The notes beneath the pieces are model-generated. The model saw only the letters and a program-made list of their open reading frames with translations, was not told where the DNA came from and searched no databases. From positions 434,001 to 498,000 of the forward strand of contig NZ_JAGGJA010000001.1 of assembly GCF_026229185.1 (NCBI RefSeq): 64,000 nt of DNA. The letters run 5' to 3'. The stretch is from Fodinibius salsisoli (GTDB lineage Bacteria > Bacteroidota > Rhodothermia > Balneolales > Balneolaceae). Shown piece after piece: positions 4,130 to 64,000 of this stretch. The position numbers and the translations under genes were made by a program. How positions within the stretch are numbered: position 1 is the stretch's first letter; every line of letters starts with the position of its first letter.

Positions 4130-7100
4130 TTATTCTTCTGAAGTTGATGATTCAATAGCAGGGGTTGGAGGCCGGGTATTACGCTGATCTTTGGCCAAAC
4201 TTCGCACCACCACATAGAAAACGGGGGTCAGAAATAAGCCCAGTAGTGTAACGCCCAACATACCGGCAAACTCGGTCAGGCCAATGGCAAATCGCATCTC
4301 CGATCCCGCGCCGGTAGATATCAGCAGAGGAATCATGCCAAGGATAAACGCAAAGGCGGTCATCAGGATGGGACGCAGGCGAATCTTAGCGGCCTGCACG
4401 GCAGCTTCCCATCGACCTACCTGCTGATTTTCTTCAATCTGTTTGGCAAATTCAACAATCAGAATCGCATTTTTACTGGCCAGTCCTACCAGCACAACCA
4501 AACCGATTTGTGTGAGCACATTCACATCCTGTCCCATCAGTCCCAGCCCAATAGCAGCCGAGAGCACACACATCGGGACGATGAGAACGATGGCCAGCGG
4601 CAGCAGCCAGCTTTCGTACTGAGCTGACAAGATCAGGAAGGCAAATACGACAGCCAGAATAAATACCAGGATCGCCATATTGCCAACCTGTTTTTCCTGG
4701 TAGGCCAGCTCCGTCCACTCATAGCTGATACCTTGCGGAAGGGTCTCGGCAGCAAGTTTCTCCATCTGGTCCAAGGCTTCGCCGGTACTGTAACCAGGCG
4801 CAGCTTCGCCACTCAGGGCTGCTGCAGGGAATAAGTTAAACCTGGGAACCCGCGGCGCGCCTGTAGTTTGATCTACATCCGAGACCGAGCCCAGGGGAAC
4901 CATCCCACCCTGATCGTTGCGAACCCTCAGGTTAAGCAGGTCGGATGGTGTACTTCGATACGACGCATCCGCCTGTGCCGTAACCTGATAGGTGCGCCCC
5001 AAGTAGTTAAAGTCATTGACGTACGAAGATCCGACCATTAAATTCAGGGTTTGAAAAAGATCAGAAACATTCACGCCCAGTCGTTCGGCACGCTCTCGAT
5101 CCACATCCAAAAATATTTTGGGAGTATTGGTGCCAAAGGTTCTGAAAGCATTGACGATAGCCGGATCCTGGTTGGCCGCCATTGCCAGTTTTTTCGTGGC
5201 TTCATCCAATGCCTTCGAGCCAACACCTGACCGGTCCTGGACCATCATTTTAAAGCCGCCGGCATTCCCAATACCCTGCACCGGTGGAGGTGGAATGACA
5301 AACACATTGGCCTCCTGGATTTGCGCGGCGGTCTGGTTCAACTGGCCGAGTAAAGGACCAAATCCAATGCCATGCTCCTCTCGATAAGAAAAATCTTCGA
5401 GCGGGAGGAAGATCACCGCTTCGTTTGGAGCATTGGTAAATGTGGCCCCGGATAAGCCGGTAAAGGCAATGGTGTTCTCTACCCCCTCAATGTCTAAAAA
5501 CTTGTCGGTCGCCTGTTGTACCACCGCATCGGTACGATCCAGAGAAGCCCCCGGCGGAAGCTGCACAACCGTAATAAAATACCCCTGATCCTGGGGAGGG
5601 ATAAATCCACCGGGCAGCCGGTTGAAGAGGAAAAAGGCCAGCCCAATCAATACCAGGTAGACCAGCAAGACCGATCGCTCCCGTCGGACGCCCTTCTCAA
5701 CGACCGATGCATATTTCCCGGAGAGCCGGTCCATAAGGCTGTTGAACTTTCCAAACAGGTAGTCTACGGGTTTAAGCAGTCCTGAGCGCTTAACGTTCGA
5801 CTCGTCTTTCAAAATCAGGGCACTTAAAGCCGGGGTGAGCGTCAGTGAAACCACCAGCGACCACAGCGTAGCCGTGGAAATCGTCAGGGCAAACTGGCGA
5901 AAAAACTGTCCGGAGATGCCCTCTAAGAAGGCCGTGGGAATAAACACACCCGCCAACACCAATACCATGGAGACCAGCGCCGCGCCGACTTCATCCATCG
6001 TTTTGTGGACCGCCTCCCGCGGGCTCATGCCTTCCTCGATATTGCGGGCAGCGTCTTCGACCACGACAATGGCATCATCCACCACAATACCGATAGCCAG
6101 CACGAGACCAAACAGCGTCAGGTTATTGAGCGAGAAGCCCAGCAAATTCATGATGGCAAAGGTCCCGATCAGCGAGATAGGGATAGCCAGGATGGGGATG
6201 ATAGATGCCCGGAACGACTGCAAAAACAAAACGATGACGATAACCACCAAGATGATTGCTTCGATAATCGTGCGGTACACTTCATTCAAAGATTGCTCTA
6301 CGTATTCGGTCGGATTGTACAATACCTTGTATTCCAGTCCGGCTGGAAAATCTTCCGAAAATTCCTCCATTCTCGCCAACACCTCATCTGCGGCTTCAAT
6401 GGCGTTGGAACCGGGGCGCTGAAAGACACCCAGGGCTACTCCTGGATTCTTGCCCAGATAGCTGCGGGTAGTGTACGATTGGGCGCCGAGCTCAACCCGG
6501 GCGATGTCTTCCAACCGGACAATTCGCCCGTTTTCTTCTTTAACAATAACCTGCTCAAATTCCTCTTTTGATTCCAGTCGCCCTTGCGTCTGCACATTAA
6601 TCCGGAAGGCTCCACCCTCCGCATTATTGGGCTCCTGGTTGAGGTTACCACTCGCTACCTGCACATTTTGAGCACGCAGAGCTCCCAACACATCACCGGA
6701 AGTAATATTCAGTGTCGTCATACGATCGGGATCAACCCATACACGCATGGCATACTCGCTACCCCCGAAGACCATCACATTACCAACGCCGTCGATACGA
6801 GACAGCTGGTCGCGGATGCGGAGGGTGGCATAATTTGAGATGTACAACTGGTCGTAACTCTTATCCGGTGACAGCAAATTTACCACCATCAAAAAGTTGG
6901 GCGAATTTTTTAAAGTAGTCACGCCCAGCTGGCGTGTCTGCTGTGGCAGTCGGGGCTCAGCGCGGGCTACCCGGTTTTGAACCTGTACCTGGGCATCATC
7001 AATATCGGTGCCCAGTTCAAAGGTTACGGTAATGGTCAGATTTCCATCATCCGTTGCCTGAGACTGCATGTAAATCATATTTTCCACCCCGTTGATCTCC

Positions 7101-49678: not shown

Positions 49679-51382
49679 ATGAAAATGAAGATACGGATCA
49701 TAGTCGTTGGTCTCTTGTTAAGTGCCCTTGGTACTGGCTGCAGTCCCACCGAATCCACCCAACAACAAGAGCCCACGCCCTCTACCGACACTGATGCGCT
49801 CATTACCTATCAAGACGAAATAACCGTCGATTTTATGCGACCGCGCCTAACAGCATTCGCCGCGGATTCTATGGAAGGACGTGAAACCGGCATGCCCGGC
49901 CAAAAAAAAGCGGCGGAGTATCTGTCTGGCCAGTATCGCCAATTGGGATTACAACCGGCCGGTGATGACGGAACCTATTTACAGAAATTCTCCCTTAATG
50001 CTAGCCGTAGGGACAGCGTTGTTTTTAAGACCTTTGCTACAAAAGAAGGCCAAAAAGAATTGATTAGCCACTCGGTGGCCAGCGCCAACTCCTCGGCAGA
50101 ATATATCCGATCATTCGGAGGGACCGACTCCCTGTCAGGAGATATTGTATTTGCAGGTTTTGGCATTAACGATCCGGACCGGGGAGTTAACCATTTAGAA
50201 GGAGCCAACCTACAGGGCAAATGGGTGTTGGTCTTTCAACAAATTCCCCATACTGCTAATGGAGACACCTTAGTTGATCCGGAGATTGGCAATCGGGCTC
50301 GCTTCAACGCCATCTTCAGCCAGGGAGCAGAAGGGATTTTACTTATTCCGGATATGGACCGCGAAGCCTTTCAACAGTCGGCAACGGGCCAACGAGGTGA
50401 GTTCGGCACGCCTTCCAACATGCGACTGGCCTATCGCGAAGGTGACTCCGGCGGATTCAGCAAAGGATATAATATTTTAAGTCCGGCAATGGCAGCCCAA
50501 TTGCTGCACCTGGATAGTGAAGACGCCTTGAACTCACACCGGGATACCTTGATTGCAAATATTTCGGATTTCACCCCTAAAGAGCTTGAATTTGCGCTCA
50601 CCCAGATTCCCTATTCATCCGAAACCGAAATTCAAACAGAGAATGTGCTGGCCTTACTGGAGGGGGGCGACCCACAGCTTAAAGACGAAATTATCGTCAT
50701 GACGTCTCACTACGATCATGTCGGTATTGGCGAACCCGATTCTACCGGCGATCGCATCTATAACGGCGCGGATGACGACGGCAGCGGTACCATTGGCCTG
50801 GTCAACGTCGCCAAGGCATTCAGCGAGGCTGCTGAAAACGGCGTTCGACCGAAGCGAAGCATCCTGTTTCTAAATGTTAGTGGTGAAGAAAAAGGACTGC
50901 TCGGCTCTCGCTACTATTCCGATCATCCCGTATTTCCGATCAACAAAACCATTGCCAACCTGAATACGGATATGATTGGCCGCATCGATAAAGAGCATGA
51001 ACAGGAGGGCGTTGAAGATTATGCCTATATCATCGGGAGCGAAATTATTTCTTCCGACCTGGATAGCCTGATCAAAGAGGCTAACAGCCGATCCGGACAG
51101 ATTGCACTCGATAAAAAATATAATGACCTGCAGGACCCCAACCAGTTTTACCGGCGCAGTGACCACTGGAATTTTGGCCGGCTGGGCATTCCTTTTGCCT
51201 TCTTCTTTACGGGCATTCACGAAGACTACCACAGGCCTTCGGATGAAGTCCACAAAATACGCTTCGAGAAAATGGCCAAAATAGTTCGAACCATGTACAC
51301 ATCAGCGGTGCTGCTGGCCAACACGGAAGAGCCCCCGGCCGTAGATAACCAGGAGTTTATTGAAATCACGAAAGGAGATTAG
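49679..51382 (+). CDS. M28-family zinc aminopeptidase, lipoprotein
   Basis: This 567-residue protein has a lipobox (LSALGTGCSP, Cys about 21), a PA-type inserted domain (VFAGFGINDPDRGVNHLEGANLQGKWVLVF) and an M28 catalytic domain. The zinc and catalytic residues can be followed in MTSHYDHVGIG, NGADDDGSGTIG, VSGEEKGLLGS, LNTDMIGRID and TGIHEDYHRPSDE. It cleaves N-terminal residues from peptides outside the cytoplasm. It may work with the M14 enzymes 6 kb upstream, but that is only an association by function. Confidence 0.95.
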   Translation: MKMKIRIIVVGLLLSALGTGCSPTESTQQQEPTPSTDTDALITYQDEITVDFMRPRLTAFAADSMEGRETGMPGQKKAAEYLSGQYRQLGLQPAGDDGTYLQKFSLNASRRDSVVFKTFATKEGQKELISHSVASANSSAEYIRSFGGTDSLSGDIVFAGFGINDPDRGVNHLEGANLQGKWVLVFQQIPHTANGDTLVDPEIGNRARFNAIFSQGAEGILLIPDMDREAFQQSATGQRGEFGTPSNMRLAYREGDSGGFSKGYNILSPAMAAQLLHLDSEDALNSHRDTLIANISDFTPKELEFALTQIPYSSETEIQTENVLALLEGGDPQLKDEIIVMTSHYDHVGIGEPDSTGDRIYNGADDDGSGTIGLVNVAKAFSEAAENGVRPKRSILFLNVSGEEKGLLGSRYYSDHPVFPINKTIANLNTDMIGRIDKEHEQEGVEDYAYIIGSEIISSDLDSLIKEANSRSGQIALDKKYNDLQDPNQFYRRSDHWNFGRLGIPFAFFFTGIHEDYHRPSDEVHKIRFEKMAKIVRTMYTSAVLLANTEEPPAVDNQEFIEITKGD

Positions 51383-51493
51383 CGTATATGGGTATAGGGG
51401 AAACAAGATTTTAAGGGAGTTATGTATGATGAGGCACGAGCGGACGCTCGCGCCATTGTGTGGTTTATTTCCTTTATACCCTTATTTCCCCTT

Positions 51494-52663
51494 TCACTTA
51501 AGCCCGTCATACAGCGTTTCCAGCAATTTTTCTGTGGGATCGTAGCTGTGGTGCCAATACATTACGCCGCCCAACTCTTTCTCTTTAATATAATCTGCCT
51601 TATGCTTTAATGATTCAGGATCTTCATATGTTACCATAATCTGCTTATCCGGATTCCACAAATAGGGGGCCTTGGCGCCCTCATCCCAATACCGGCTAAA
51701 GCCATTTTTATTGATAAATTCGGCTTGTAGTTTTTCGTAGGAAATAAATTGGTAAAATTCCTCAAAAGGCTGGTAGAGTCCATTATTTTCTGGATGTACG
51801 CCCGACCAGCTGCGCCCATAAAAGGCCGCTCCCAAGACGACTTTATTTGCCGGAATTCCGGCATCCAGGTGGCGCTGGATTGCGGCTGTTGTAGTTCGGG
51901 TCGGGGCATCCGGCGAGGACTGATACAGCCCGGTATGGTGGCCGGTGGTCTCAGACCCGACGGTAAACATATCGTAGCTCATCACGTTGACGAAGTCCAG
52001 GTATTGGTGCACCTCACCCATCTCGGTATGATCAAAAAATGACTGATTATCGTTACTGGCAATCGTAAGCAGATAACGACCATCGCCGGAGAGTCCGCGC
52101 TCGTTACTCAGGCTATCCAAATGTGTGCGGAGGGATTTCATCATCAGCGTAAAGTTCTGCTTGTCCTCGGGCCGGTATTTGATCCCCGGTCCCGGCTGAC
52201 CCGGAAACTCCCAATCGATATCGATGCCATCCAGACCATACGTTTTGATAAGCTCGAGCGCGCTCTCCGAAAAAATATCGCGCGATTCTTTAGTCAGGGC
52301 TGCATCCGAAAAACCGTCAGCACCCCATCCGCCCACAGAAACCAAAAGCTTTAAATCAGGATTTTTTGCCTTCAGCTTTTGCAGCCGGGCTAATCGCTGA
52401 GCTGCTTCGAGCTCATTGCGGAAATAGATTTCCCCATCTTCATTAACATGAGCAAATGAGTAGTTGATATGGGTCAGCATATCGACGCCCATATTCCAGC
52501 TGTTTTTACTGCCATCGGCGTAAGCAATAATGCGATAGGAAGGGGACTCCGATGCACTGGTCTGCTGTGCAATTCCAGAGCCAACAGACAGAAATAGCAA
52601 CAGCAAAGCGGTTATAGCGAACTGAATGAGTTGCCTGGCAGAGGAAAAAATCGAGTAAATCAT
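51494..52663 (-). CDS. GH18-family glycosidase (chitinase-like)
   Basis: This 389-residue protein has a signal peptide (ALLLLFLSVGSGIAQQ) and a GH18 barrel. The catalytic DxxDxDxE motif is YGLDGIDIDWEFPG with Glu152 as the acid. Other family segments are KLLVSVGGWGADGFSD, VNVMSYDMF, and the C-terminal LGGVMYWHHSYDP. It hydrolyses beta-1,4-linked N-acetylglucosamine polymers such as chitin or related glycans; the exact substrate is open. It is encoded alone, next to a repeat-rich gap. Confidence 0.94.
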   Translation of the reverse strand: MIYSIFSSARQLIQFAITALLLLFLSVGSGIAQQTSASESPSYRIIAYADGSKNSWNMGVDMLTHINYSFAHVNEDGEIYFRNELEAAQRLARLQKLKAKNPDLKLLVSVGGWGADGFSDAALTKESRDIFSESALELIKTYGLDGIDIDWEFPGQPGPGIKYRPEDKQNFTLMMKSLRTHLDSLSNERGLSGDGRYLLTIASNDNQSFFDHTEMGEVHQYLDFVNVMSYDMFTVGSETTGHHTGLYQSSPDAPTRTTTAAIQRHLDAGIPANKVVLGAAFYGRSWSGVHPENNGLYQPFEEFYQFISYEKLQAEFINKNGFSRYWDEGAKAPYLWNPDKQIMVTYEDPESLKHKADYIKEKELGGVMYWHHSYDPTEKLLETLYDGLK

Positions 52664-53253
52664 GGCTCTAAAATTTGGTTAAAATGGTAATACTATTTTA
52701 CAAATATTTTTCTTTTGTTCGCAGGCCTTGGACGTAAAAAAATGTTATTGTAAATAGGTTGGGGGTTATAAGTTACAGGTTGAAAACTCATAGACTCATC
52801 GGATGAGTAACAAGAGCTCTTATTCGGTGCTAAGCTAAATCACTCATCCGATGAGTGATTACCAGCCTACTTCCCACTTGAGACTCCTCGCTGCGCTTGA
52901 AGTGACAACCCGGGTTCCCGTTTACTTGGTCCCGACACTTCGGAATTTGCTCATTCAAAAAAGTAATAGACATACGGCATTGTTTTAAAATAGAGCAATA
53001 GTTCTCTATCATCTTTTGGCCATCCCAAAAATGGAACACGTAATGTTTTTATTTTTTCGCCTTTTGTCTTGGCACAACCCCGAAAGTTTTCGGGACCAGC
53101 AGAGCTGGAAGAAAAGCCAAGAAGAATTTAACTCCTCGGTGCTAACAGATTTCATTGCCGCTGATAACGGTTTGCAGGCAGCCCCTGGTCAGACAGAAAT
53201 TCTTCCGGTGGGAGGGCGTCCCTTTGACACGTTTTTAGAAAGGCCTATAAACT
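52664..53253. other. repeat-rich gene-free stretch
   Basis: About 590 bp with no supportable gene. It holds the palindrome pair at 52794-52860, the 10-bp palindrome AAGAGCTCTT (52812-52821), CACTT/AAGTG arms around a GAGACTCCTCGCTGCGC word (52875-52904), and CCCGAAA/TTTCGGG (53079-53094). The mix resembles fragments of dispersed intergenic repeats. A 79-codon frame (53016-53255) crosses these repeats and is not taken as a gene. Confidence 0.6.
52794..52860. repeat. pair of related palindromes, possible operators
   Basis: ACTCATC-G-GATGAGT (52794-52808) and its reverse complement ACTCATC-C-GATGAGT (52842-52856) are palindromes with one central base, 48 bp apart; the second is longer, with arms AATCACTCATC/GATGAGTGATT (52838-52860). 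They lie 130-200 bp upstream of the GH18 start. They could bind a dimeric regulator or belong to a dispersed repeat. The words CTCATCGG and CTCATCCG recur in the hairpins at 43789 and 43841. Confidence 0.6.
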
Positions 53254-53277
53254 AAAAAATAAGACGTCTGCCGTCTT
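53254..53277 (-). terminator. intrinsic terminator after the first CHAT gene
   Basis: On the minus strand AAGACG, five bases, CGTCTT form a 6-bp hairpin followed by ATTTTTT (53254-53277 as read on plus). It starts 13 bp after the stop codon of the TPR-CHAT gene. Confidence 0.65.
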
Positions 53278-53290
53278 TCACTTGTCTCTT

Positions 53291-56209
53291 TCACCTTCCC
53301 ACTACAATAAATGGCGCCCAGTAAACCGGATGATTAAACAAGGGGTGATTGATCATCTGTAGTTTAGCCTGGCGCATAGCCGTTGCTTTCTCTCCAAAAG
53401 GAATAGAAGTATCCCAGCCGACCCATCGGAGCGTCGCATCAACCCATCCCTCTTCGCCTTTGCCTTCGATAAGTGCCTTATAAAATTCATTCATCAGCGA
53501 AGCTGTTGAGCGGTCATACACACTCCACAAGCTCACCACCACGGTAGAAGCGCCCGCATAAAAGAAAGAACGCTGCATACCCAGCATGCCTTCTCCCCGG
53601 ACCACTTTCCCCAAGCCCGTATTACAGGCACTGAGTACCACCATATCCGAACTCATGTTGAGCCCAAAAATTTCCGAACTGCGCAGCATCCCATCCTCCC
53701 TGGAGGAAGCCGTAATATCTCCTTCTGTTGATAGGGCCAGCCCACTGCGCCCCGGGCGCTCCTCGTCGATGACCCCGTGCGTGGCCATATGCACATACTG
53801 ATACCGACTCTGCTGCAGCAAATTCTTAAACGCCTGTTCCGAAACCTGTTCATCTTTCAGCATGGACACCTGCTGAAAGTGGGAGGCGATGGAATCGACC
53901 TCAATAAGCGTGGAAGGCAAGGCTGAAAGACGGCTCGAACTTAAAGCACTTCCGCCATCTGATGATTGCGATCCTGCTACAGCCAATAGTTCTTTGCGAT
54001 TTTTGGTCGATGCCTCTTCCAGAAGCTCCAGGCTCGTTAAGGAAGGCTCGTATTTTATTTTAAAGTTTTCAATCAGGTACCGATCATCCTGCAAAAGCGC
54101 CTCAAACGGGAGATAAGCCAGCGCGCCGTCCGGAACGATGATCAGGTTTTCGTATTCTTTGAGTGATTGCTCGAAGGGGGCAATGAGAATTTCATACAAT
54201 TCACCGGACTGCGATTGCAGCTGTGTCTTATCGGCATTGGCTAATATTCCGTCTCTGAATGCCGTTACCCGGGCCGTAAGCGCACTGTCTAAGGACTGAT
54301 TAGCCGGATACGAAAACTGCTCTACCCGCACCTCATCCTGACCGATAAGAAACAGGATCAACTCGTTGCCCGCTACCGCATACTCGAGTACGGCCGTCTG
54401 ATCATCGGTGAGGCTTTGGGCCCGCTGCAGGGCGATAGGTTCCGGGAGATCCAGCTTCTGCAACACCGGGTACTCTTCCTTTAATCGGTTTTCATAGGCC
54501 GCATAATTAAGCTCTGTGGTACGTATCTGCTCGCTGATTCGAGCCTGTTGCTGCGCGTCTGGCGCCCGCTCCAGTTGGGTGTAGAGGCTGTCGATCCTGT
54601 TCTGTTTTTCGTTGCGTTGGATGCGGACCTCCTCGGGCAGCTGCTGCTCAATATTCTGGGTAGCTTTGGCCAGGTCATCACTGAAGGAGCGCGCCTTGGC
54701 CTGTTCAACCAGGGTAAAAGCCCGCGGCGTGTCTTGGGTATAATTGAGCACCCAGGAGGCCAGCTCGGTATAAAAGTCAGAATGTTTTTTAAAATAGCCG
54801 GTTTTCAGATTAGAGACGGCGCCCGCCTTGCCTCGCCCTTCCTCAATGATATCAACGGCTTTCTGCCCGTACACCACCGCGCTATCGGAATTGAGCTTGT
54901 GGTACTGCCGGGCCAGCTGCTTAAGGATCCCCAGCCGGTTGTTTCTAGGCAAATAGGTACTGTAGGCATACGCTTTTTTGTAATGCGTTAAGGCAGATTC
55001 ATCCTTCCCTTCCGCCGCATTTATTTCGCCCAAATAAGCCGAAGCATTTTCCCGTATCTCATAACTCTCCGTTGAATCGCCTATGGACTTAATCTGGCTG
55101 GCATAGACTCGGGCCTGCTCAAATTTTTGCTCCTCCAGCGCCAGCTCCACCATGGTGTTGAGCGAAGAAGCAATGTCGTACGGGTTGCCCACTTCTTTTC
55201 GCAACGCCAGAGCCTTCTTAAAATAAGTGGCGGCCTCTTGGGTCTGGCCCTGCTCCCAAAGCAGTTTCCCCAGGTTTTTGGTCGTCGTAGCGATCGATTG
55301 CGGCCCCGCCACTTTCTCTTTCATTGCTAAACTTTGCCGGTAATAATCCTTCGCCTTTTCATATTCTCCCAAGGTTTTATAAAGAAGCCCGATGTTGTTC
55401 AGTACAAGACCTATTCTCTGTGGGACACCAGCCTGCTGACTATACTTTAAGCTTTTTTGATAGGCAGTCAATGCTTGACTATAATTTCCCAATTCTCTTT
55501 GTATGCTTGCTATAGTTCCATAGCTCACCGACATCATAAAAACGTTATTTAGTTCTTTACGAATGCCGATACTTTTTGTGTAATACTCCAACGCCTTTTC
55601 GTAAAGAGAAAGGGCTTTATAAATACTCCCAATATTATTTAAAGTAATTGCAATGCTTTTCTTATTACCTAATCCTTGAAAATAAAGAAGTGCTTTTTGG
55701 CTATACTCCAATGCCTTACCTAAATTTCCCTTTTTGTTGAACACGCTTCCCAAATTATCATAGACTACTCCAATCAGTAAGCTATCGCCCGATTGCTCTG
55801 CCAAAGGCATTGATTTTTGATAAAAAGATAATGCTTCATCTGTTTTTCCAATTCTGCTGGAAGACCAGCCCATACTATTGTACAGATCACCCCGGTTGTA
55901 GGCATCATTGGCCGGATGATCGACATTAAGGAGCATTTTATAGAGGGTCATCGCCTCCTCATTTTTCGAGCGATAGACCATTGCGCTGGCATATTCCTTG
56001 CCCGCCTCCAGCCATGAGGTAGTATCCTGAAAGTTCCGGTAGATCTGGTAGGCCTCCCGGTAATAAAACTCGGCCTGCTCCATGTTGCCGCCCTGGTCAT
56101 ACTGCTTGCCCTGCTGCAGCAATGAGTCGGCTAACTGTACGCTTTGTCCCCACAAAGCAAGCGGCAGCCCCAAAAGCATCCCAAAGAAGAGTAGCCACCG
56201 TTTATTCAT
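53291..56209 (-). CDS. secreted TPR-CHAT caspase-like protease 1
   Basis: ATG 56209 gives 972 residues: a signal peptide (WLLFFGMLLGLPLALWGQS), then about nine 40-residue TPRs (residues about 90-420, e.g. DNLGSVFNKKGNLGKALEYSQKAL), a helical linker, and a C-terminal CHAT domain. The catalytic dyad is His811 in HMATHGVIDE and Cys862 in VLSACNTGLG. A GTG seven codons upstream is less likely. CHAT domains are caspase/separase-like Cys proteases, often activated through TPRs. Export means it should act in the periplasm or on the surface. Substrates are unknown; a 33-codon gene lies between it and the second copy. Confidence 0.93.
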   Translation of the reverse strand: MNKRWLLFFGMLLGLPLALWGQSVQLADSLLQQGKQYDQGGNMEQAEFYYREAYQIYRNFQDTTSWLEAGKEYASAMVYRSKNEEAMTLYKMLLNVDHPANDAYNRGDLYNSMGWSSSRIGKTDEALSFYQKSMPLAEQSGDSLLIGVVYDNLGSVFNKKGNLGKALEYSQKALLYFQGLGNKKSIAITLNNIGSIYKALSLYEKALEYYTKSIGIRKELNNVFMMSVSYGTIASIQRELGNYSQALTAYQKSLKYSQQAGVPQRIGLVLNNIGLLYKTLGEYEKAKDYYRQSLAMKEKVAGPQSIATTTKNLGKLLWEQGQTQEAATYFKKALALRKEVGNPYDIASSLNTMVELALEEQKFEQARVYASQIKSIGDSTESYEIRENASAYLGEINAAEGKDESALTHYKKAYAYSTYLPRNNRLGILKQLARQYHKLNSDSAVVYGQKAVDIIEEGRGKAGAVSNLKTGYFKKHSDFYTELASWVLNYTQDTPRAFTLVEQAKARSFSDDLAKATQNIEQQLPEEVRIQRNEKQNRIDSLYTQLERAPDAQQQARISEQIRTTELNYAAYENRLKEEYPVLQKLDLPEPIALQRAQSLTDDQTAVLEYAVAGNELILFLIGQDEVRVEQFSYPANQSLDSALTARVTAFRDGILANADKTQLQSQSGELYEILIAPFEQSLKEYENLIIVPDGALAYLPFEALLQDDRYLIENFKIKYEPSLTSLELLEEASTKNRKELLAVAGSQSSDGGSALSSSRLSALPSTLIEVDSIASHFQQVSMLKDEQVSEQAFKNLLQQSRYQYVHMATHGVIDEERPGRSGLALSTEGDITASSREDGMLRSSEIFGLNMSSDMVVLSACNTGLGKVVRGEGMLGMQRSFFYAGASTVVVSLWSVYDRSTASLMNEFYKALIEGKGEEGWVDATLRWVGWDTSIPFGEKATAMRQAKLQMINHPLFNHPVYWAPFIVVGR

Positions 56210-56352
56210 GATATTTATTTTAAAGCCCACCGATTGAAATAATTCCCTGCTTTATTTTTTAAAGTACACTAGTAATCCAAGCTGTTTTAAGAGGACTTTA
56301 AAACCAACTGTTTACTCTTCAACTACATTCGCCCCTATAAAAATTGGGTCTC

Positions 56353-56400
56353 ACTGCACTCAGCCTGACGTCATATTGAGCGCAGTCCCGATCAGTCGGG
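56353..56400. repeat. dispersed palindromic repeat fragment
   Basis: ACTGCACTCA (56353-56362) pairs with TGAGCGCAGT (56377-56386) with one mismatch, and CCCGA-TCAG-TCGGG (56387-56400) follows directly. Such GTCA-TTGAGCGCAGTC blocks resemble short intergenic repeats common in this group. The rest of 56210-56592 has no gene; a GTACT/AGTAC mini-dyad lies before the mini-gene. Confidence 0.6.
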
Positions 56401-56592
56401 AAAATATGTACCAGTATTTCAAAGCCCCCTAAAACCTTTGCTATAAGGCCCATCACATTAAAATATAAAATAGAAGTATCCTAACCATTTAAAAACTGGC
56501 ATTTGTACCAAAATTATGACACTTTATTATGGTGCTCAGTTTGAAATGGGGTACTTATAGTACAAATAACACTCAACAAATCAGGAGATATT

Positions 56593-56694
56593 ATGTTAGA
56601 ACCTTTAGATAGTTCCACCTTATTAGCTTTTTCAGCTATACCGGACCAAGAAGAGACCAAGAATGACGATGACGACGATAGCCGGTCAACTTAA
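56593..56694 (+). CDS. 33-residue mini-protein between the two CHAT genes
   Basis: ATG 56593 to TAA 56692-56694 encodes 33 residues: MLEPLDSSTLLAFSAIPDQE, then a short linker and an acidic tail of five Asp ending SRST. An AGGAG ribosome site (56583-56587) is 5 bases before the ATG, and a textbook terminator follows 39 bp after the stop, so this is a complete small transcription unit. It runs opposite to both flanking CHAT genes. There is no signal peptide. It could be a substrate, inhibitor or signal for the CHAT proteases, or an unrelated small protein; no family is recognised. Confidence 0.62.
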   Translation: MLEPLDSSTLLAFSAIPDQEETKNDDDDDSRST

Positions 56695-56733
56695 TTAGAT
56701 CGTTCATTGATTTAGATAACCAACTTCATTCCG

Positions 56734-56766
56734 GCCACATGTTGTCTATCAGCATGTGGCTTTTTT
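56734..56766 (+). terminator. intrinsic terminator of the mini-gene
   Basis: GCCACATG (56734-56741) pairs perfectly with CATGTGGC (56753-56760) around an 11-base loop and is followed by six T. On the minus strand there is no T-run, so it serves the plus-strand mini-gene only. Confidence 0.9.
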
Positions 56767-56789
56767 GTTGCAAGGAGCCCCTTCTCATA

Positions 56790-59700
56790 TCAGTGGCCAA
56801 TAAATATAAATGGTGCCCAATATTTGGGATGCGCATACTGAACACCCTTAATCATCTGTCTCTTAGTTCGCTGAAGCGCCAAAGGCATCCCTTCATCCTG
56901 TAAATGGTGCCGGTAAAAGTCCTCCATCAACCGGGCTGAGGAACGATCATCGACATCCCAGAGCGAAACCAACAAGTTTTGGGCACCGGCATACTGAAAG
57001 GCCCGGCTCAGGCTCATCATCCCTTCTCCCCGTGCCATCGAACCAATACCGGTTTTACAGGCACTGAGCGCTACAAGGCGGGCATCCAGCTGCAGGTTAT
57101 AAATTTCTGAAGTATATAATACGCCATCATCCTGCGGCTCCGAGGTCGAGAATAAGATGGCCGATTGCCCGGGATCTTCTTCCGACACAACAGCGTGGGT
57201 GGCCAGGTGGATATAACGATAGTTCGTAAGCGGAATATCTTTAAAAGCATTTTCAGTCGCTTCATCCTCCAGGAAAAGAGCCGGCTGGCCCTCCGGGGTC
57301 AGGAACGAATGTTCTTCCTCAAAAAGCGTTCCCAGTGTTTCCACTTCCCGTTTGCTAAGCGGCAGCGGCGACAGGGGACGATCAGAATGGGGATAACTCC
57401 GCTGCCGGCCGGCCTTCTGGTCCGGATCAAATCCGGGTGCGACCCCCAGGAAGGACCGCTGCCGTTCATCCGTCGTGGTGGCCCGGCTAACCTGGAGATA
57501 ACTGGCGGAAGGAGCGTAACTGATGGTGAAGTCCTTCACCAGGTACGGCAATTCATGAAATCGTTCGGCAGCATCCTCCGTAATTGCGTGGGTTACCAAG
57601 CTTTCAAAAGGCAAATGATGCAGTGGCCCATCCGGAATAATGGTCAGCTGGTTACCCTGTATCAAATCCCGCAGGGGATCAAATAACTGGGTATAGAGGT
57701 AATAGCTTTCCTCGACAAAGGCCTTTACTGAGTTCACTTCCCGCATCTGTTTGCGATACCGGATGATGCTTTCCTCCAGAAGAGAATCTACAGGCAGCCT
57801 TCGCAGCCGGGTCTCTTCTTCGGTCAGTACAAACGCATACAAATCATCAGAACCCCAAAAATATCGGATCATCGTTTGGTTACCGGCCAGCATCTTTCGG
57901 CGTACCTCGGCCGCACGTACTACCAGCGGCTGGTACATCAGCTCATAATAGGAGGGATAGCCTTGCTCCACCTGTTCCATATGTTGTGTGAGTGCCTGCC
58001 GGCTATGGAAAAGGGAATCCTCAAGAGATCTCCGTCGGAGCGAATCGGTCGATTGGGACGGTTCGGCCTGTACCTTCAGTTTTTCCTGTAAGGTTGTCAG
58101 CCGACTTTTAAGCTCATATTCTTGTTCAATAAGCGTATCGGGCACTCCGGCAAACTTCCGGGCCTGCAGGTGTTGTAGCTGCTCAAGCAAGAGCTGTCCA
58201 CTACTTTTCTCGGCAAAATAAAAGGCATACTCTTTATAATCGGCATTTCCGGTCTTCTGCAACAACTGGCAGGCCGTTGTAAAGCCTTGTTTATAGATCT
58301 CAGCACTGCGCTTTCGCAACTGGAGCTTCGATGTTTTGCGATGATAGGATTTTTGGAGATCGCCGACCAGCTGCGTAAGCTTCAGGTACGTTTGCATCGC
58401 CTGCTTCAGCGGAGATGTTTCACCGGATTGATCCGCATACTTTTGCAATACCCGGGCCTGCTGCTGCAGGGTCTCTACCAGTTGTGTAGGATAGAGCACC
58501 TCCTCAATCGGCAATTGTTGAGCGGCGACCTCACTGCCCGATCCTCTGATAAAAATATCCGCCGCCTGCCTGAAATATTTGAGCGCCTGCTCATAATTCC
58601 CGGCCATGCCATGGGTCTCGCCAATTTTGGTGTAGGTATCTCCGATGAAGGGATGGTCCGCCCTCAATTTATCCAAATTTATCTGCAGGTCCTGCTGGTA
58701 ATAATCGAGTGCTTTGTCATAAGATTGCTTGTTGGCGTAGGCCTGCCCCAGGTTGGCATACGTATTGGCCAGCTCCGGATGTCCCTCGGGAAAGTGATCC
58801 AAATATAAGGACTCAGCTTGTTTGTAGTGGGTGATCGCCTCATCATACTGCCCCATATCGTAATGAATAGCCCCCAGATTTTGATAGGCGATAGCAATAT
58901 CCGGATGGCCATTATCCAGCAGTTTCTTTTTAATGGCAAGTGCTTTCTTGAGGTAATCGGTAGCCTTGTCAAGTTCATCCATCTCCGAATAGACGATGCC
59001 CACGTTATTATACCCCGCAGCGACCAAGCGGTGATTTTCGCCATGGAAATCTGCTAACACCTGCGTCGCATTCTTCATATGGTCCAGCGCCCGCTGGTAA
59101 TCACCCTGATAGTAATAAGTGATGGCCATATTGTTGAAACCCTTGGCCAAGTCGGGATGAGGCCGGGGCAAAATTTCCTGATCGATCTCCAGGGACTGCC
59201 GGTAATATTCCAGGGCCGTTTCCCAGTTGCCTTGGCCCTGGTGCACCACCCCGTAACTGTTATAAATGCGGCCCAACAACCGTTTATCCTCAACTCCGTT
59301 ACGGTGATAGTATGATTCGGCTTTTCCCAACTGCTGCAGCGCCCGGTCATAATTTCCCCGGGACTGATAAACGTCGCCAATACTGGCAAGTAATCGTGTT
59401 TGCAGGTTAGGTAACCTTGCACTATCAGCAGACTTTAATCCTTTGCGATACCACTCCAGGGCCTTTTTATAGTCGGCCCGGGCCTCAGCAAGTACGCCCC
59501 TGTGATGGTAGGCTTTAACCCGGAAGGAGTGATCATTATGCCCATCCTGCTGGTGTAATACAATCGCTTCCTCCAGCAGTCGTTCGGATTCCCCGGGCTC
59601 ATCCTGACTGTATTTATTCAGGCTCAGCTTATAAATCGCCATCGCCTTTCGGTGCGAATCATCGGATGCCTCAAATTCCTTAACCGAGCGCTGAAGGTAA

Positions 59701-59858
59701 GTGTTCGAAGAGTCGTATCGGGCGGCAAAGCGAAGAGCATCTCCTTTTGCATAAGCTGGCGACGTAGATGCCTCATCTTGCCCCTGAACAGCCACAGTGA
59801 GGGCCAGAACCCCAAAAAGAGTTGTCAGTAGCCGTGTAAAAGTGTTCGTAATCTGCAC
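56790..59858 (-). CDS. secreted TPR-CHAT caspase-like protease 2
   Basis: This 1022-residue protein starts at GTG 59858 with a signal peptide (LLTTLFGVLALTVAVQGQ) and a GAGGG ribosome-like site in front. About nine TPRs follow (residues about 60-460), several of the 42-residue kinesin-light-chain type (e.g. AIAYQNLGAIHYDMGQYDEA). The CHAT domain carries His888 (HLATHAVVSE) and Cys934 (ALSACKTGIG). It resembles the first CHAT protein in layout but not closely in sequence, so the two may have different targets. It is followed, across the mini-gene, by the control region of the first. Confidence 0.93.
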   Translation of the reverse strand: MQITNTFTRLLTTLFGVLALTVAVQGQDEASTSPAYAKGDALRFAARYDSSNTYLQRSVKEFEASDDSHRKAMAIYKLSLNKYSQDEPGESERLLEEAIVLHQQDGHNDHSFRVKAYHHRGVLAEARADYKKALEWYRKGLKSADSARLPNLQTRLLASIGDVYQSRGNYDRALQQLGKAESYYHRNGVEDKRLLGRIYNSYGVVHQGQGNWETALEYYRQSLEIDQEILPRPHPDLAKGFNNMAITYYYQGDYQRALDHMKNATQVLADFHGENHRLVAAGYNNVGIVYSEMDELDKATDYLKKALAIKKKLLDNGHPDIAIAYQNLGAIHYDMGQYDEAITHYKQAESLYLDHFPEGHPELANTYANLGQAYANKQSYDKALDYYQQDLQINLDKLRADHPFIGDTYTKIGETHGMAGNYEQALKYFRQAADIFIRGSGSEVAAQQLPIEEVLYPTQLVETLQQQARVLQKYADQSGETSPLKQAMQTYLKLTQLVGDLQKSYHRKTSKLQLRKRSAEIYKQGFTTACQLLQKTGNADYKEYAFYFAEKSSGQLLLEQLQHLQARKFAGVPDTLIEQEYELKSRLTTLQEKLKVQAEPSQSTDSLRRRSLEDSLFHSRQALTQHMEQVEQGYPSYYELMYQPLVVRAAEVRRKMLAGNQTMIRYFWGSDDLYAFVLTEEETRLRRLPVDSLLEESIIRYRKQMREVNSVKAFVEESYYLYTQLFDPLRDLIQGNQLTIIPDGPLHHLPFESLVTHAITEDAAERFHELPYLVKDFTISYAPSASYLQVSRATTTDERQRSFLGVAPGFDPDQKAGRQRSYPHSDRPLSPLPLSKREVETLGTLFEEEHSFLTPEGQPALFLEDEATENAFKDIPLTNYRYIHLATHAVVSEEDPGQSAILFSTSEPQDDGVLYTSEIYNLQLDARLVALSACKTGIGSMARGEGMMSLSRAFQYAGAQNLLVSLWDVDDRSSARLMEDFYRHHLQDEGMPLALQRTKRQMIKGVQYAHPKYWAPFIFIGH

Positions 59859-59969
59859 GGGGATTGCCCTCGTTTTTGAATATGCTTGAAAAAACTACCT
59901 GATTGTCTCCATTAACAGCATCTTCTAAGAGAGGAAATAACTACGATATAAGCTACCTTCTGCTACCTG

Positions 59970-60923
59970 CTACTCCTTGAACATAGAGTTTACAAACAGC
60001 TCGCGGTCGAAGACCTGCAAGTCTTCAATTTCTTCTCCCACGCCGATGTATTTGACCGGTACATCCAGCTCGTTCGAGACGCCAATTACGATACCCCCTT
60101 TGGCTGTGCCATCCAGTTTGGTGAGTACCAACCCCGTGATATCTACAAAATCAGTAAAGGCTCTGGCCTGCTGCATCGCATTTTGTCCCGTTGAGGCATC
60201 GAGCACCAGCAGCACTTCGTGTGGGGCACCCTCTACCACCTTCCCCATTACACGCTTTATTTTTGCCAGCTCTTCCATCAGCGACTTCTTATTGTGCAAA
60301 CGTCCGGCGGTGTCTACCAACGCAATATCAGCTTGCTTGGCCTTAGCCGACTCTACGGTATCATAAGCCACAGCAGCGGGATCAGCGTTCTGCCCCTGCT
60401 GAATAATGGGCACATCTGCCCGCTCGCTCCATATTTTAAGCTGATCAACGGCAGCTGCCCGAAAGGTATCGGCGGCACCGAGCATTACGTTCTTGCCCGA
60501 CGTTTTGTACAGGTGGGCCAGCTTACCAATAGTGGTGGTCTTGCCTACGCCATTTACGCCGACGATCATCACGATATGGGGTTTCTGGGGAAATTCCGCA
60601 TCAAAATCCGCAGGTTTATCGGGAGCATGATCTTTAAGAAGGGCAATGATTTCTTCCCGCAGGATACCCTGCAGCTCACTGCTATTCAAATATTTATCCC
60701 GGGCTACCCGTGCCTCAATACGGTCAATAATTTCTACCGTTGTTTTAACCCCTACATCCGAGGTGATAAGGATCTCTTCGAGGTCGTCCAGCACGCCGGC
60801 ATCCACGGTCTTTTTACCGGCGATAGCCTTCCCGATCTTATTCATGATGCCGGACCGGCTTTTTTCTACCCCTTTCTCAACCTTTTCTTTCTTTTTGAGA
60901 CCTATTTTTTCTAAAAAACCCAT
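59970..60923 (-). CDS. ftsY: signal recognition particle receptor FtsY
   Basis: This 317-residue SRP receptor GTPase delivers ribosomes making membrane proteins. The NG domain is complete: G1 VGVNGVGKTTTIGKLA, G3 DTAGRLHNKKSLMEEL, G4 TKLDGTAKGG, and the closing PVKYIGVGEEIEDLQVFD. The acidic A domain of E. coli is replaced by a short basic start (GLKKKEKVEKGVEKSRSG), as usual in this group. It lies 111 bp before the second CHAT gene on the same strand; no functional link is implied. Confidence 0.97.
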   Translation of the reverse strand: MGFLEKIGLKKKEKVEKGVEKSRSGIMNKIGKAIAGKKTVDAGVLDDLEEILITSDVGVKTTVEIIDRIEARVARDKYLNSSELQGILREEIIALLKDHAPDKPADFDAEFPQKPHIVMIVGVNGVGKTTTIGKLAHLYKTSGKNVMLGAADTFRAAAVDQLKIWSERADVPIIQQGQNADPAAVAYDTVESAKAKQADIALVDTAGRLHNKKSLMEELAKIKRVMGKVVEGAPHEVLLVLDASTGQNAMQQARAFTDFVDITGLVLTKLDGTAKGGIVIGVSNELDVPVKYIGVGEEIEDLQVFDRELFVNSMFKE

Positions 60924-60996
60924 AATTGTTTGCTATTGATGTAGCCACGTATTCACAAAAGGTTCATGCCATAATGTTTTGGTGGCCAATAATGAT

Positions 60997-61587
60997 TCAG
61001 TTAAATGCTACGCCTTTACGAATTTCGTTGAAACGATGAAGATAATCAAAGAAGGAGAAAAACATAAGGGCCAGTGAATTGCCCATAAACAACAGGTGGG
61101 CCGGCTCAGCGTCGGGAAAGAAAAACACCGACAACCAATACAAGCCTAAGGCATTGACGCTTATTTTACCCGACATGACGGCCATGGCTACTTTGCCATG
61201 CATCTGCTGAATGTAGAGGGACCCACTTAGGATCAGCGCATCACGAACCAGTTCCACAATGAAAAACCACAGGGGAATAATACCAATATAGACGGCATAT
61301 AAAAACAGGATAAAAGCACAGAATTTGTCGGCCACCGGGTCAAGCACTTTACCCCATTCCGAAACCTGATCGGTCTGCCGGGCTATATATCCATCCAGGT
61401 AATCTGAGACAATACCATACAGAACGAGCAGGCTAATGGCCCACGTTATCTGCTGACCATTATAATAATGAAGGTAGATAATGGGGATGGCCACCAGGAT
61501 GCGTGAAAAAGAGATCAGGTTCGACCAGGTAAACAGCACCTGCCGAACGGTTACCTCTTTCTGATCTATGTTGTATGATTTTGTCAA
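60997..61587 (-). CDS. CDP-alcohol phosphatidyltransferase family protein
   Basis: This 196-residue membrane enzyme has the full signature D-x2-DG-x2-AR-x8-G-x3-D-x3-D in SDYLDGYIARQTDQ and WGKVLDPVADKF, and about five helices. It transfers a phosphatidyl group from CDP-diacylglycerol to an alcohol, such as glycerol 3-phosphate (PgsA) or inositol phosphate. The alcohol cannot be told from sequence alone. The start is TTG 61587; the frame has no ATG before the conserved region. It is divergent from the NUDIX gene and its 5' end overlaps that gene's upstream region. Confidence 0.9.
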   Translation of the reverse strand: MTKSYNIDQKEVTVRQVLFTWSNLISFSRILVAIPIIYLHYYNGQQITWAISLLVLYGIVSDYLDGYIARQTDQVSEWGKVLDPVADKFCAFILFLYAVYIGIIPLWFFIVELVRDALILSGSLYIQQMHGKVAMAVMSGKISVNALGLYWLSVFFFPDAEPAHLLFMGNSLALMFFSFFDYLHRFNEIRKGVAFN

Positions 61588-61649
61588 TGGAAACCAAATT
61601 CTTTCTTATACTTGATCTTCAGCAGCTTAAGATACGCAAAATTCTGCCC

Positions 61650-62219
61650 ATGACCGACTCTCATAAACTGATCGAACAGACCCAATCATCCGAAGAAATC
61701 TTTAACGGCCGGTTGTTGCATGTTTTCCTGGACCATGTCCGGCTGCCCGATGGATCTACTTCTACCCGTGAATGGATTAAACATCCGGGGGCTTCTGCAG
61801 TAGTGCCGGTATTTGAAAATGGCGATGTAATGCTGGTGCGGCAGTTTCGCTACCCGGTCTCTCAAATATTCCATGAGGTGCCGGCCGGCAAGATCGATCC
61901 CGATGAAAATGCAGACACCACTGCCGAGCGCGAACTCAATGAAGAAGCCGGGTTGGTTTGCCAGCAATTCCAGTATATTGGTCACTTTTACCCGGGGATC
62001 GGCTATTCGGATGAGATCATCCATATCTATGCCGCCTGGGATATCGAAGCTTTTGATCAACAAGTGGATGACGATGAGTTCCTGCTGAAGGAACGACTGC
62101 CCTTCAAAGAAGCCATAGAGATGGTCCATTCCGGCGAAATATCAGACGGCAAAACGATGGTCAGCCTGTTGCGAACGTGGCACTGGTGGCAAAAGGAGGG
62201 ACCGTTTAGTATTCAGTGA
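61650..62219 (+). CDS. NUDIX hydrolase (ADP-ribose pyrophosphatase-like)
   Basis: ATG 61650 gives 189 residues with the Nudix box GKIDPDENADTTAEREL and NEEAGL (GX5EX7REUXEEXGU). The preceding VMLVRQFRYPVSQIFHEVPAG is typical of ADP-ribose pyrophosphatases of the NudF/YffH type, which clear ADP-ribose or sugar nucleotides. An in-frame TTG 25 codons upstream would overlap the divergent gene and is not needed. It is followed by a long inverted repeat (62229-62280). Confidence 0.93.
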   Translation: MTDSHKLIEQTQSSEEIFNGRLLHVFLDHVRLPDGSTSTREWIKHPGASAVVPVFENGDVMLVRQFRYPVSQIFHEVPAGKIDPDENADTTAERELNEEAGLVCQQFQYIGHFYPGIGYSDEIIHIYAAWDIEAFDQQVDDDEFLLKERLPFKEAIEMVHSGEISDGKTMVSLLRTWHWWQKEGPFSIQ

Positions 62220-62228
62220 ACAAAGGCG

Positions 62229-62280
62229 AGACGGTAAACGTAAAATATGAGAAATAACTATCACGCCACGTTTGCCGTCT
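62229..62280. terminator. 13-bp inverted repeat between convergent genes
   Basis: AGACGGTAAACGT (62229-62241) pairs with ACGTTTGCCGTCT (62268-62280) with one G-T wobble across a 26-base loop. It lies between the convergent NUDIX gene and the acidic protein gene and touches the latter's stop codon. It lacks a clear T-run; it may be a terminator or a dispersed palindrome. Confidence 0.5.
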
Positions 62281-62581
62281 ATGAAATAATACCTTCCTCC
62301 ACGGATAGCTCATACAGGGATTTATGCAAATCAGTATCAGAAATGTCACCACGATTGATCAGCTCTTCCACCTCATCGCCCTGAAGCATCAGGATACAGC
62401 CCATTTCGTTGAGCACTTCATCAAATTTTCGGGGATCTGCATTGGATAGCTTGTCGAGATCAATACCCTCCGGATTTTTCCTCACATTCACCAGGCAGTA
62501 GAAGTTATCCTCATCGTCGTCGCCGAATCCAAATATCTCGAGTTTAGTATCGTCTTTTTCTAACATAGTACAATCTAACAT
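62279..62581 (-). CDS. small acidic protein of unknown function
   Basis: This protein of 100 residues (95 if ATG 62566 is used) is strongly acidic: LEIFGFGDDDEDNFYCLVNV at the N-terminus, then KLSNADPRKFDEVLNEMGCILMLQGDEVEELINRGDISD. It has no signal peptide or membrane helix, and I recognise no family. It lies 53 bp after an HTH gene on the same strand, so co-transcription is possible. Codon use and the clean end support it as a real gene. Confidence 0.65.
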   Translation of the reverse strand: MLDCTMLEKDDTKLEIFGFGDDDEDNFYCLVNVRKNPEGIDLDKLSNADPRKFDEVLNEMGCILMLQGDEVEELINRGDISDTDLHKSLYELSVEEGIIS

Positions 62582-62634
62582 CCGAAATTATAGTTTATCT
62601 GATAAGTAGCAGGGCAGGGCTACCATGCGGGGCG

Positions 62635-63042
62635 TTATTGATAACGCTCCAGGAAATCCCGGGCCTTGATGAGCTTAACTACTTCGTCGGTACTTTCATC
62701 GATCACTTCTACCTGGAAAAGGCTGATGATCGCCTGATTTTCAATACAGCTGATGGTCTCTTCAATGGTATCACACTCTTCCTGCTCACTCACCAAATCG
62801 TTAATACCTTTCAAAATATATCGAAAATTTTTAGGAGTATTGGACTTTTCTGACTTGCCCTCGGCCGGCGTATCGAAATATTCTCGCAGGGCCTCTTCGG
62901 TAACATACCATTTGACGCCCAGTTTCCGGGCCCGAATTTTCCCCTCCCTCAAATAGGCGCGAATCGTCATTTTGCTAAGGCCGAGTTGTTCATGGAGATC
63001 ATCAACGGAGTACAGCGTAAGATTACCAATTTTTTTAGGCAT
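62635..63042 (-). CDS. excisionase/MerR-like HTH domain protein
   Basis: ATG 63042 gives 135 residues. The N-terminal third is an excisionase-type winged HTH: LYSVDDLHEQLGLSKMTIRAYLREGKIRARKLGVKWYVTEEALREYF. The rest is acidic and helical (NDLVSEQEECDTIEETISCIENQ) with no recognised domain. It may be a small DNA-binding regulator of chromosome genes; no phage or transfer genes are nearby to suggest excision. An in-frame TTG three codons upstream is possible. Confidence 0.85.
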   Translation of the reverse strand: MPKKIGNLTLYSVDDLHEQLGLSKMTIRAYLREGKIRARKLGVKWYVTEEALREYFDTPAEGKSEKSNTPKNFRYILKGINDLVSEQEECDTIEETISCIENQAIISLFQVEVIDESTDEVVKLIKARDFLERYQ

Positions 63043-63051
63043 AATGCACAA

Positions 63052-63411
63052 ATGATAAAAATATTCGTTCTGGATTACTCAATCACACACCCACTGAAAC
63101 TAACAATAGTTGTCTATTTAATAAACATAAATTATTGATAATTATATATTACTTATAGGTTAGGCAGTCTATTCCAATTTAACTTGTTCCGTATAGGTCA
63201 ATAGCTGTATATTATAAACAGTGATTCGAAAGAAAGCTCTGCAACCGCAGGGCTTTTTGTTTTTCTCTCCCGATTTTCACCCTTTTCTCTTTCTGATTTC
63301 CTCATCTTCTCCACCCACTCCTGATCTCATATTTTTTGTTCTAAGTACGATCATTACTACATTACTGGTTGATAAGACTCTATCCCAATCTAATATCGAA
63401 AGTCACCCACC
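63052..63411. other. gene-free stretch with an intrinsic terminator
   Basis: This 360-bp gap has no gene that I can support. AGCTCTGC (63235-63242) pairs with GCAGGGCT (63247-63254) with one wobble, followed by five T, a convincing plus-strand terminator. Nothing translated precedes it on that strand, so it may end a short non-coding RNA in about 63120-63258, or transcription started in the HTH promoter region. A 94-codon frame starting at 63221 is not believable. Confidence 0.55.
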
Positions 63412-63885
63412 ATGGAACCATCTAAAACCGTTCGATCTCTTCTGCTGGAACAGCTTGAAGGCAAAAACGCCCATGTGGATTTCAATCAGGCCGTCCAGGG
63501 ATTAACGTACAAACAGTCCAGCATACAGGTCGAGGGCGTGCCGCATACGATCTGGCAGCTCATTGAACATATCCGGATCAGCCAGGATGACATCCTGGAG
63601 TTTTGTGAAACCCCCTCTTACCAAGCCCCTGACTGGCCAGATGATTACTGGCCCCAATCGGCTGCCCCAGCCAATAAAGACGAATTTGAGCAGTCGGTGC
63701 AGGCAGTACGGGATGGCATCGATGAAATGTGTTCGATGATTCGCGATACCAATAACGACCTCCAAACCTCTTTCTCCCACGGCGATGGCCAGACGCTCTT
63801 CCGCGAAGCTATGCTTATCGTCGATCATAACGCTTATCATATCGGCCAGATCGTTCTGATAAGACGGATGCTTGGCAGCTGGTAA
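63412..63885 (+). CDS. DinB-family protein
   Basis: This 157-residue protein has the four-helix DinB/YfiT-like pattern: SLLLEQLEGKNAHVDFNQAVQGL, then PHTIWQLIEHIRISQDDILEF with the first His, and ILVDHNAYHIGQIVLIRRMLG-type closing segment (IVDHNAYHIGQIVLIRR) with two His. These three His form a metal site in the family, which includes thiol transferases and stress proteins of unclear function. It is transcribed alone and followed by a small hairpin. Confidence 0.92.
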   Translation: MEPSKTVRSLLLEQLEGKNAHVDFNQAVQGLTYKQSSIQVEGVPHTIWQLIEHIRISQDDILEFCETPSYQAPDWPDDYWPQSAAPANKDEFEQSVQAVRDGIDEMCSMIRDTNNDLQTSFSHGDGQTLFREAMLIVDHNAYHIGQIVLIRRMLGSW

Positions 63886-63907
63886 GGCTTACTTCCATTA
63901 TATTTTT

Positions 63908-63929
63908 AGGAGGCTTTGAAAAACCTCCT
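63908..63929. terminator. hairpin after the DinB gene
   Basis: AGGAGG (63908-63913) pairs with CCTCCT (63924-63929), with TTT/AAA inside, 22 bp after the stop codon. The T-run lies before the hairpin on the plus strand, so it fits a minus-strand terminator better; either use is uncertain. Confidence 0.45.
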
Positions 63930-63940
63930 CAGAATAAACC

Positions 63941-64000
63941 TGTCATTGCGAGCCTGCGAAGCAATCTCCGTTTGAAAGCTTAAAATGGAGATCGCCGCGC
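63941..64000. repeat. dispersed GTCATTGCGAG palindromic repeat, cut by the window edge
   Basis: TGTCATTGCGAG...GAAGCAATCTCC (63941-63969), then GGAGATCGC (63987-63995), forms an inverted repeat with one mismatch. The block TGTCATTGCGAG-GAAGCAATCTC is a known style of short interspersed palindrome in many bacteria. Its second half lies beyond the window. Confidence 0.7.

Follow-up and report, generated by a model that had tools for sequence, protein, structure and literature searches.

A conserved gene for a small acidic protein, divergent from an exported TPR-CHAT protease gene in Fodinibius salsisoli, encodes a probable protease partner and possible inhibitor

Fodinibius salsisoli (genome of 4.85 Mb) harbours a gene for a 33-residue acidic protein located back-to-back with the gene of an exported TPR-CHAT protease, here called CHAT2. 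Judging from conservation and gene linkage, this peptide is very probably a dedicated protein partner of CHAT2. By analogy with securin and staphostatin, it may act as a substrate-mimicking inhibitor of the protease, a tentative reading to which we give somewhat less than an even chance. The window, i.e. the whole stretch of DNA analysed, comprises 64,000 nucleotides, and all positions refer to it. The genus relatives belong to Fodinibius/Aliifodinibius, within the Balneolaceae. The features of the locus are as follows:

56593..56694, plus strand: gene for the 33-aa small acidic protein, ATG start and TAA stop, product MLEPLDSSTLLAFSAIPDQEETKNDDDDDSRST; head at residues 1-16, junction P17-D18, then acidic tail
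56583..56587, plus strand: Shine-Dalgarno sequence AGGAG, 5 nt upstream of the ATG, inside the block AAAATCAGGAGATCATT-ATG
56734..56766, plus strand: intrinsic terminator, 8-bp hairpin and six T
56489..56527, plus strand: AT-rich block upstream of the peptide gene, between the divergent genes, genus-conserved in the alignment
53291..56230, minus strand: CHAT2, exported TPR-CHAT protease, divergent partner gene, His818/Cys869 intact
56790..59858, minus strand: CHAT1, second TPR-CHAT gene (1022 aa), convergent neighbour, outside the peptide-CHAT2 pair
59970..60923, minus strand: ftsY, syntenic neighbour of the CHAT locus, conserved in the family

Both genes flanking the small gene encode TPR-CHAT proteins (PF12770, E 1.5e-69 and 6e-62), lie on the minus strand and possess N-terminal signal sequences. 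The sequence-only reading had placed the small gene against both of them; it is indeed divergent from CHAT2 (53291-56230), but convergent with CHAT1 (56790-59858). The gene order in the genus is ftsY, CHAT1 where present, the peptide gene on the opposite strand, and CHAT2. Neighbours at the locus are ftsY, GH18, an M28 peptidase, scpA and the second TPR-CHAT. PADLOC gave no system-level defence match on the locus, only generic TPR models and a marginal PDC-S39 match (E 7e-4).

Other TPR-CHAT genes were also found in these genomes. CHAT1 (about 1030 aa) has been gained or lost independently in the genus, being missing in G001, G006, G007 and G011 and adjoining CHAT2 elsewhere, and is without a peptide of its own. 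A third, longer paralog (about 1075 aa), also without a peptide, is located elsewhere in most family genomes (L072, in G000 contig C42 at about 210600, and L073, L074, L075, L076 and L077). Just upstream of this paralog, G010 possesses tandem, near-identical ORFs for putative lipoproteins of 65 aa, MK[ST]LAKKLLAVTFAFALFTGCAS... (L076, 2818-3015 and 3061-3258). L080 (G013 contig C177, 13-6051) encodes a CHAT protein of 2012 aa that differs from the others and sits on a very long branch. The position of ftsY beside a TPR-CHAT gene is conserved across Balneolales families, including the f4 genomes G037, G043, G045 and G048, whose CHAT genes there have no peptide.

The 33-codon ORF with AGGAG five bases before its ATG, and the perfect 8-bp hairpin with six T, had both been described in the sequence-only reading and were recovered at the positions listed above. 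The arms of the hairpin are GCCACATG (56734-56741) and CATGTGGC (56753-56760), followed by the T run at 56761-56766. In the alignment of the genus with a relative, 10-12 of 13 sequences keep the block AAAATCAGGAGATCATT-ATG almost unchanged, and 10/13 have a counterpart of the hairpin and T run. Across the 41 peptide genes considered below, an SD-like motif is present upstream of only 24. The AT-rich block at 56489..56527 is probably a promoter region between the divergent genes; a scan for sigma-70 promoters revealed no excess above shuffled sequences.

The reading frame of the peptide is kept in 12/12 genus genomes. Between close pairs of peptide genes, substitutions fall preferentially on third codon positions, and the lengths of most indels are divisible by 3. 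Given the shortness of the gene, each coding test is modest by itself (p about 0.02-0.08 per pair), but the tests are mutually consistent. On this pattern of change, the small gene is a real, conserved and protein-coding gene with selection on its protein sequence. An RNA gene was considered and rejected, since a search of 50000-64000 against Rfam up to E=1 gave no match and the codon-position bias, together with the mostly 3-nt indels, favours coding. A leader peptide or ribosome-stalling attenuator was likewise discarded, as the gene has its own terminator, converges on CHAT1 or ftsY, and is followed by no gene on the same strand. The neighbours examined include no modification enzyme or exporter, which speaks against a RiPP precursor.

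The ortholog search identified 41 CHAT2 orthologs among 92 family genomes, and in a tree of 80 CHAT proteins these 41 form one clade with support of 100. In 41/41 orthologs, the region upstream of CHAT2 holds a divergent ORF that starts with ATG and encodes 28-49 aa with a tail rich in D, G and P; start codons outside the genus were picked by position and partly by eye. A profile built from 13 peptides (12 from the genus plus G021) detected exactly one site in each of those 13 genomes, with E values of 5e-14 to 2.5e-8 and always beside CHAT2. In the other family genomes the same profile found nothing better than E 0.07, and the best of these weak matches, in G013, is a CHAT2-linked peptide. 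A strict computed criterion was satisfied by 35/40 gaps upstream of CHAT2 vs 0/147 of the remaining gaps in these loci (47.9 kb), numbers that are descriptive, as the criterion was set after the first examples had been seen and the control gaps include orthologous copies. The ORF is present in the five strict misses (G011, G059, G062, G064 and G075), below the composition threshold.

The ORF is absent where the CHAT gene of the locus is of another type (G012, G018, G022, G029, G030 and G053), and it is retained in the genomes without CHAT1 (G001, G006, G007 and G011). CHAT genes of family f4, from the same order, are without the peptide, and no such ORF was found at about 50 TPR-CHAT loci outside Balneolales. 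A tblastn search of the peptide against plasmids gave no match, and a literature search for a small protein adjoining CHAT in this group found nothing. The sequence-only reading had suggested a dedicated partner of both proteases and proposed a check of conservation and of co-occurrence with TPR-CHAT genes. The frame is conserved and the peptide tracks CHAT2, being absent with other CHAT types; the tie to CHAT2 is therefore strongly supported (41/41, 0/147 other gaps, and 3/3 starts in the lineage described next) but the tie to CHAT1 is not. A partner of both CHATs was rejected, as the peptide stays where CHAT1 is missing and CHAT1-type genes alone have no peptide.

An independent lineage, G124, from another Balneolales family (f3), possesses three TPR-CHAT paralogs, none of them near ftsY. 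The first (L166, contig C325) has a divergent peptide, MSVIDELQMHGYAMMPDKDDDERNSDD..., and the second (L200, contig C281) has the peptide MEQDKYEYMLMALSPDQDDEQRDGDD... at 4414-4548, beyond which lies a methionine synthase gene. From an orphan peptide at 529-648 of L200, MKMNDLHYHAMLQLNPNGHDELKEEDSGDEG..., a third divergent TPR-CHAT was predicted on the left side. This was confirmed at the contig edge left of the peptide, where a signal peptide and TPR N-terminus are encoded that share 33-40% identity with the first two proteins. Thus, every testable TPR-CHAT start in G124 (3/3) has its own divergent peptide. In the same genome, L201 (contig C110) carries a TPR-CHAT without its start at a contig edge. 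Judged from these gene arrangements, the link between peptide and protease survives relocation.

These arrangements also bear on the view that the peptide is unrelated to CHAT2. On that view the short ORF, whether it encodes another small protein or acts in cis, would only share a divergent promoter region with CHAT2 and be inherited along with it through linkage. Vertical inheritance at a single syntenic ftsY locus, which accounts for most of the 41 cases, is what such a view would expect. However, G124 repeats the pairing in other genomic contexts with three paralogs, and the peptide stays with CHAT2 where CHAT1 is lacking and is missing where the CHAT genes beside ftsY are all of other types. 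The gene also has its own terminator and no downstream gene on the same strand to regulate. We regard mere co-inheritance as very improbable.

The peptides share a variable head of 8-18 residues, usually a Pro-Asp/Gly junction, and an acidic tail rich in Asp, Gly and Pro. In the 41 peptides of the family, heads carry almost no net charge, and tails contain 23% D, 25% G and 16% P (median charge -6). P[DG] occurs between residues 7 and 24 in 37/41 peptides, with AIPD, AMPD, ALPD and FNIPD as variants of the hydrophobic-Pro-Asp junction, and the head differs among genera. None of the 41 peptides seems to have a secretion signal. The median maximum hydropathy over 12 residues is -0.2 for the peptides vs 2.6 for the CHAT2 N-termini, the highest peptide being that of G001 (2.07), so that the caution raised earlier about a peptide lacking a signal sequence extends to the whole peptide family. 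None of 13 peptides searched matched Pfam or NCBIfam at E≤1; the peptides are an unannotated small-protein family covered by no existing family model.

CHAT2 is 972-979 aa long. The listed start is a GTG at 56230; with the ATG at 56209 as start, the signal peptide reads MNKRWLLFFGMLLGLPLALWGQ. The protein belongs to PF12770 with 235 bits against a curated cut-off of 24, and His818 and Cys869 are present in 41/41 orthologs. The clade-specific lysines K726, K792 and K948 were considered as a docking site for the peptide, but K726 and K792 are not shared by the G124 proteases, which also have peptides. Peptide charge and TPR charge are weakly correlated (rho -0.34, ancestry ignored). A structure model was built from 26 orthologs (pLDDT 82). 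Foldseek and VIA-align matched it to Csx29 (7y9x_B, Z 27.2, the best by Z), LGN with bound peptides (26-27), Rap-Phr (4i9c, 22.4), NprR, and separase-securin (7nj1, 22.0 over 779 residues). The modelled fold resembles receptors that bind peptides through TPRs, and TPR/caspase-fold proteases that have partners of their own, a likeness that by itself is no proof of function.

The matches to the Rap-Phr and NprR structures suit a second reading, in which the peptide would be a signalling ligand for the TPR domain of CHAT2, much as Rap/Rgg-type TPR receptors recognise leaderless or processed peptides. It would leave the cell by an unknown route and switch the periplasmic protease on or off according to population density or kinship. 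Leaderless communication peptides, as for RopB, are likewise encoded by a small gene divergent from that of a TPR receptor (PMC10518010), and the peptides are lineage-specific. However, no export signal or nearby exporter is present, the receptors known from such systems are cytosolic proteins of Firmicutes, and the long acidic tail differs from the 5-9 residue signals of those systems. We consider a signalling role improbable.

The match to Csx29 is consistent with another alternative, in which the peptide would be a dedicated CHAT2 substrate. An unknown cue would activate the protease, which would cut near the hydrophobic-Pro-Asp junction and free the head or tail as a signal, as Csx30 is cut by Csx29. 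The CHAT2 linkage data are identical for this alternative, and Csx29, the TPR-CHAT protein with the highest structural Z, is paired with a substrate of its own encoded nearby. The sites at which Craspase orthologs cut Csx30 are not conserved (A|S, L|D and M|K; PMC11106740), which fits fast-evolving peptides. Nevertheless, the 33-aa peptide is far smaller than Csx30 and lacks an effector domain, and an exported protease and a signal-less peptide would seemingly occupy different compartments. A substrate is, in our estimate, unlikely, at about one chance in four.

An inhibitor fits best because of the hydrophobic-Pro-Asp motif, the acidic low-complexity tail and the missing signal. The peptide would be a small, acidic and, as we infer, largely disordered protein, whose variable head and hydrophobic-Pro-Asp junction would bind CHAT2 in a substrate-like manner while the acidic tail would run along the TPR/CHAT surface. 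Uncleaved, it could serve as a pseudosubstrate that keeps CHAT2 inactive, as securin does with separase. Since it has no signal, it may act before or during export of CHAT2, as a cytosolic guard like the staphostatins for secreted staphopains, and export would release the active protease. Against inhibition, an exported protease and a signal-less peptide may never meet, the Pro-Asp junction does not occur in every peptide (37/41 have P[DG] close to the head), and heads vary from genus to genus.

TPR-CHAT proteins that are free-standing and exported occur commonly in bacteria, and little is known of how they are regulated, Csx29 being the best-studied bacterial TPR-CHAT. A one-to-one small partner over 41 genomes, together with an independent lineage with three pairs, offers a handle on what switches or restrains such proteases. 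The peptides also add an unannotated small-protein family of a kind that usually escapes notice, its ORFs being short and variable. In a wider and still more tentative proposal, which we give roughly one chance in three, exported TPR-CHAT proteases of Balneolales might be controlled by fast-evolving, disordered acidic mini-inhibitors encoded back-to-back, a bacterial counterpart of separase-securin outside CRISPR.

Staphostatins have no signal and guard exported cysteine proteases in the cytosol, and an adjacent dedicated small inhibitor is also found in SpeB-Spi. Similar to these systems, the locus combines an exported cysteine protease with an adjacent small gene, which in staphopain-staphostatin and SpeB-Spi encodes the dedicated inhibitor. 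In Bacteroides fragilis, C10 proteases have adjacent staphostatin-like inhibitors (PMC2873492). Staphostatins, however, are folded, lipocalin-like proteins of about 100 aa, directed against papain-fold proteases and encoded in an operon, whereas the peptide gene is divergent. With 28-49 aa, D/G/P-rich tails and no Pfam match, the peptides are not staphostatins.

TPR receptors can have as ligands leaderless peptides that are encoded divergently from them (PMC10518010). The CHAT2 locus resembles such RRNPP/Rgg-LCP systems in the short ORF beside and divergent to the TPR protein gene (41/41), the leaderless peptide and the Rap-Phr TPR fold match. Those receptors, in contrast, are cytosolic proteins of Firmicutes that act on DNA or a phosphorelay, lack a CHAT protease and sense peptides of 5-9 residues. 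With a signal peptide, a CHAT domain and no HTH domain, CHAT2 differs from a cytosolic receptor that binds DNA or acts as a phosphatase.

Csx29 has a dedicated substrate in Csx30 (PMC11106740), and the CHAT2 pair is similar to this type III-E CRISPR system in that a TPR-CHAT protease has a dedicated neighbouring partner protein. CHAT2 is exported, however, and its partner is a tiny acidic peptide, not Csx30. The neighbours examined include no Cas7-11/gRAMP, csx30 or other CRISPR gene, and the locus is therefore not a Craspase.

Separase is blocked by securin, which acts as an extended pseudosubstrate, carries a large hydrophobic residue at P1 and docks through an LPEE motif (PMC10317155, PMC12609080). 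The search of 13 peptides against Pfam and NCBIfam (E≤1) revealed no homology to securin. In contrast to separase-securin, a eukaryotic caspase-like protease with its disordered acidic inhibitor, the protease described here is bacterial and exported, the peptide measures 28-49 aa and shares no sequence homology, and inhibition is a proposal. Similar to that pair, CHAT2 combines a TPR-like part with a caspase-fold protease, and its probable partner, presumably extended, carries a hydrophobic-Pro-acidic motif, as securin carries LPEE. If the peptide is a pseudosubstrate inhibitor, the separase design of a caspase-fold/TPR protease with a disordered inhibitor would gain a bacterial parallel.
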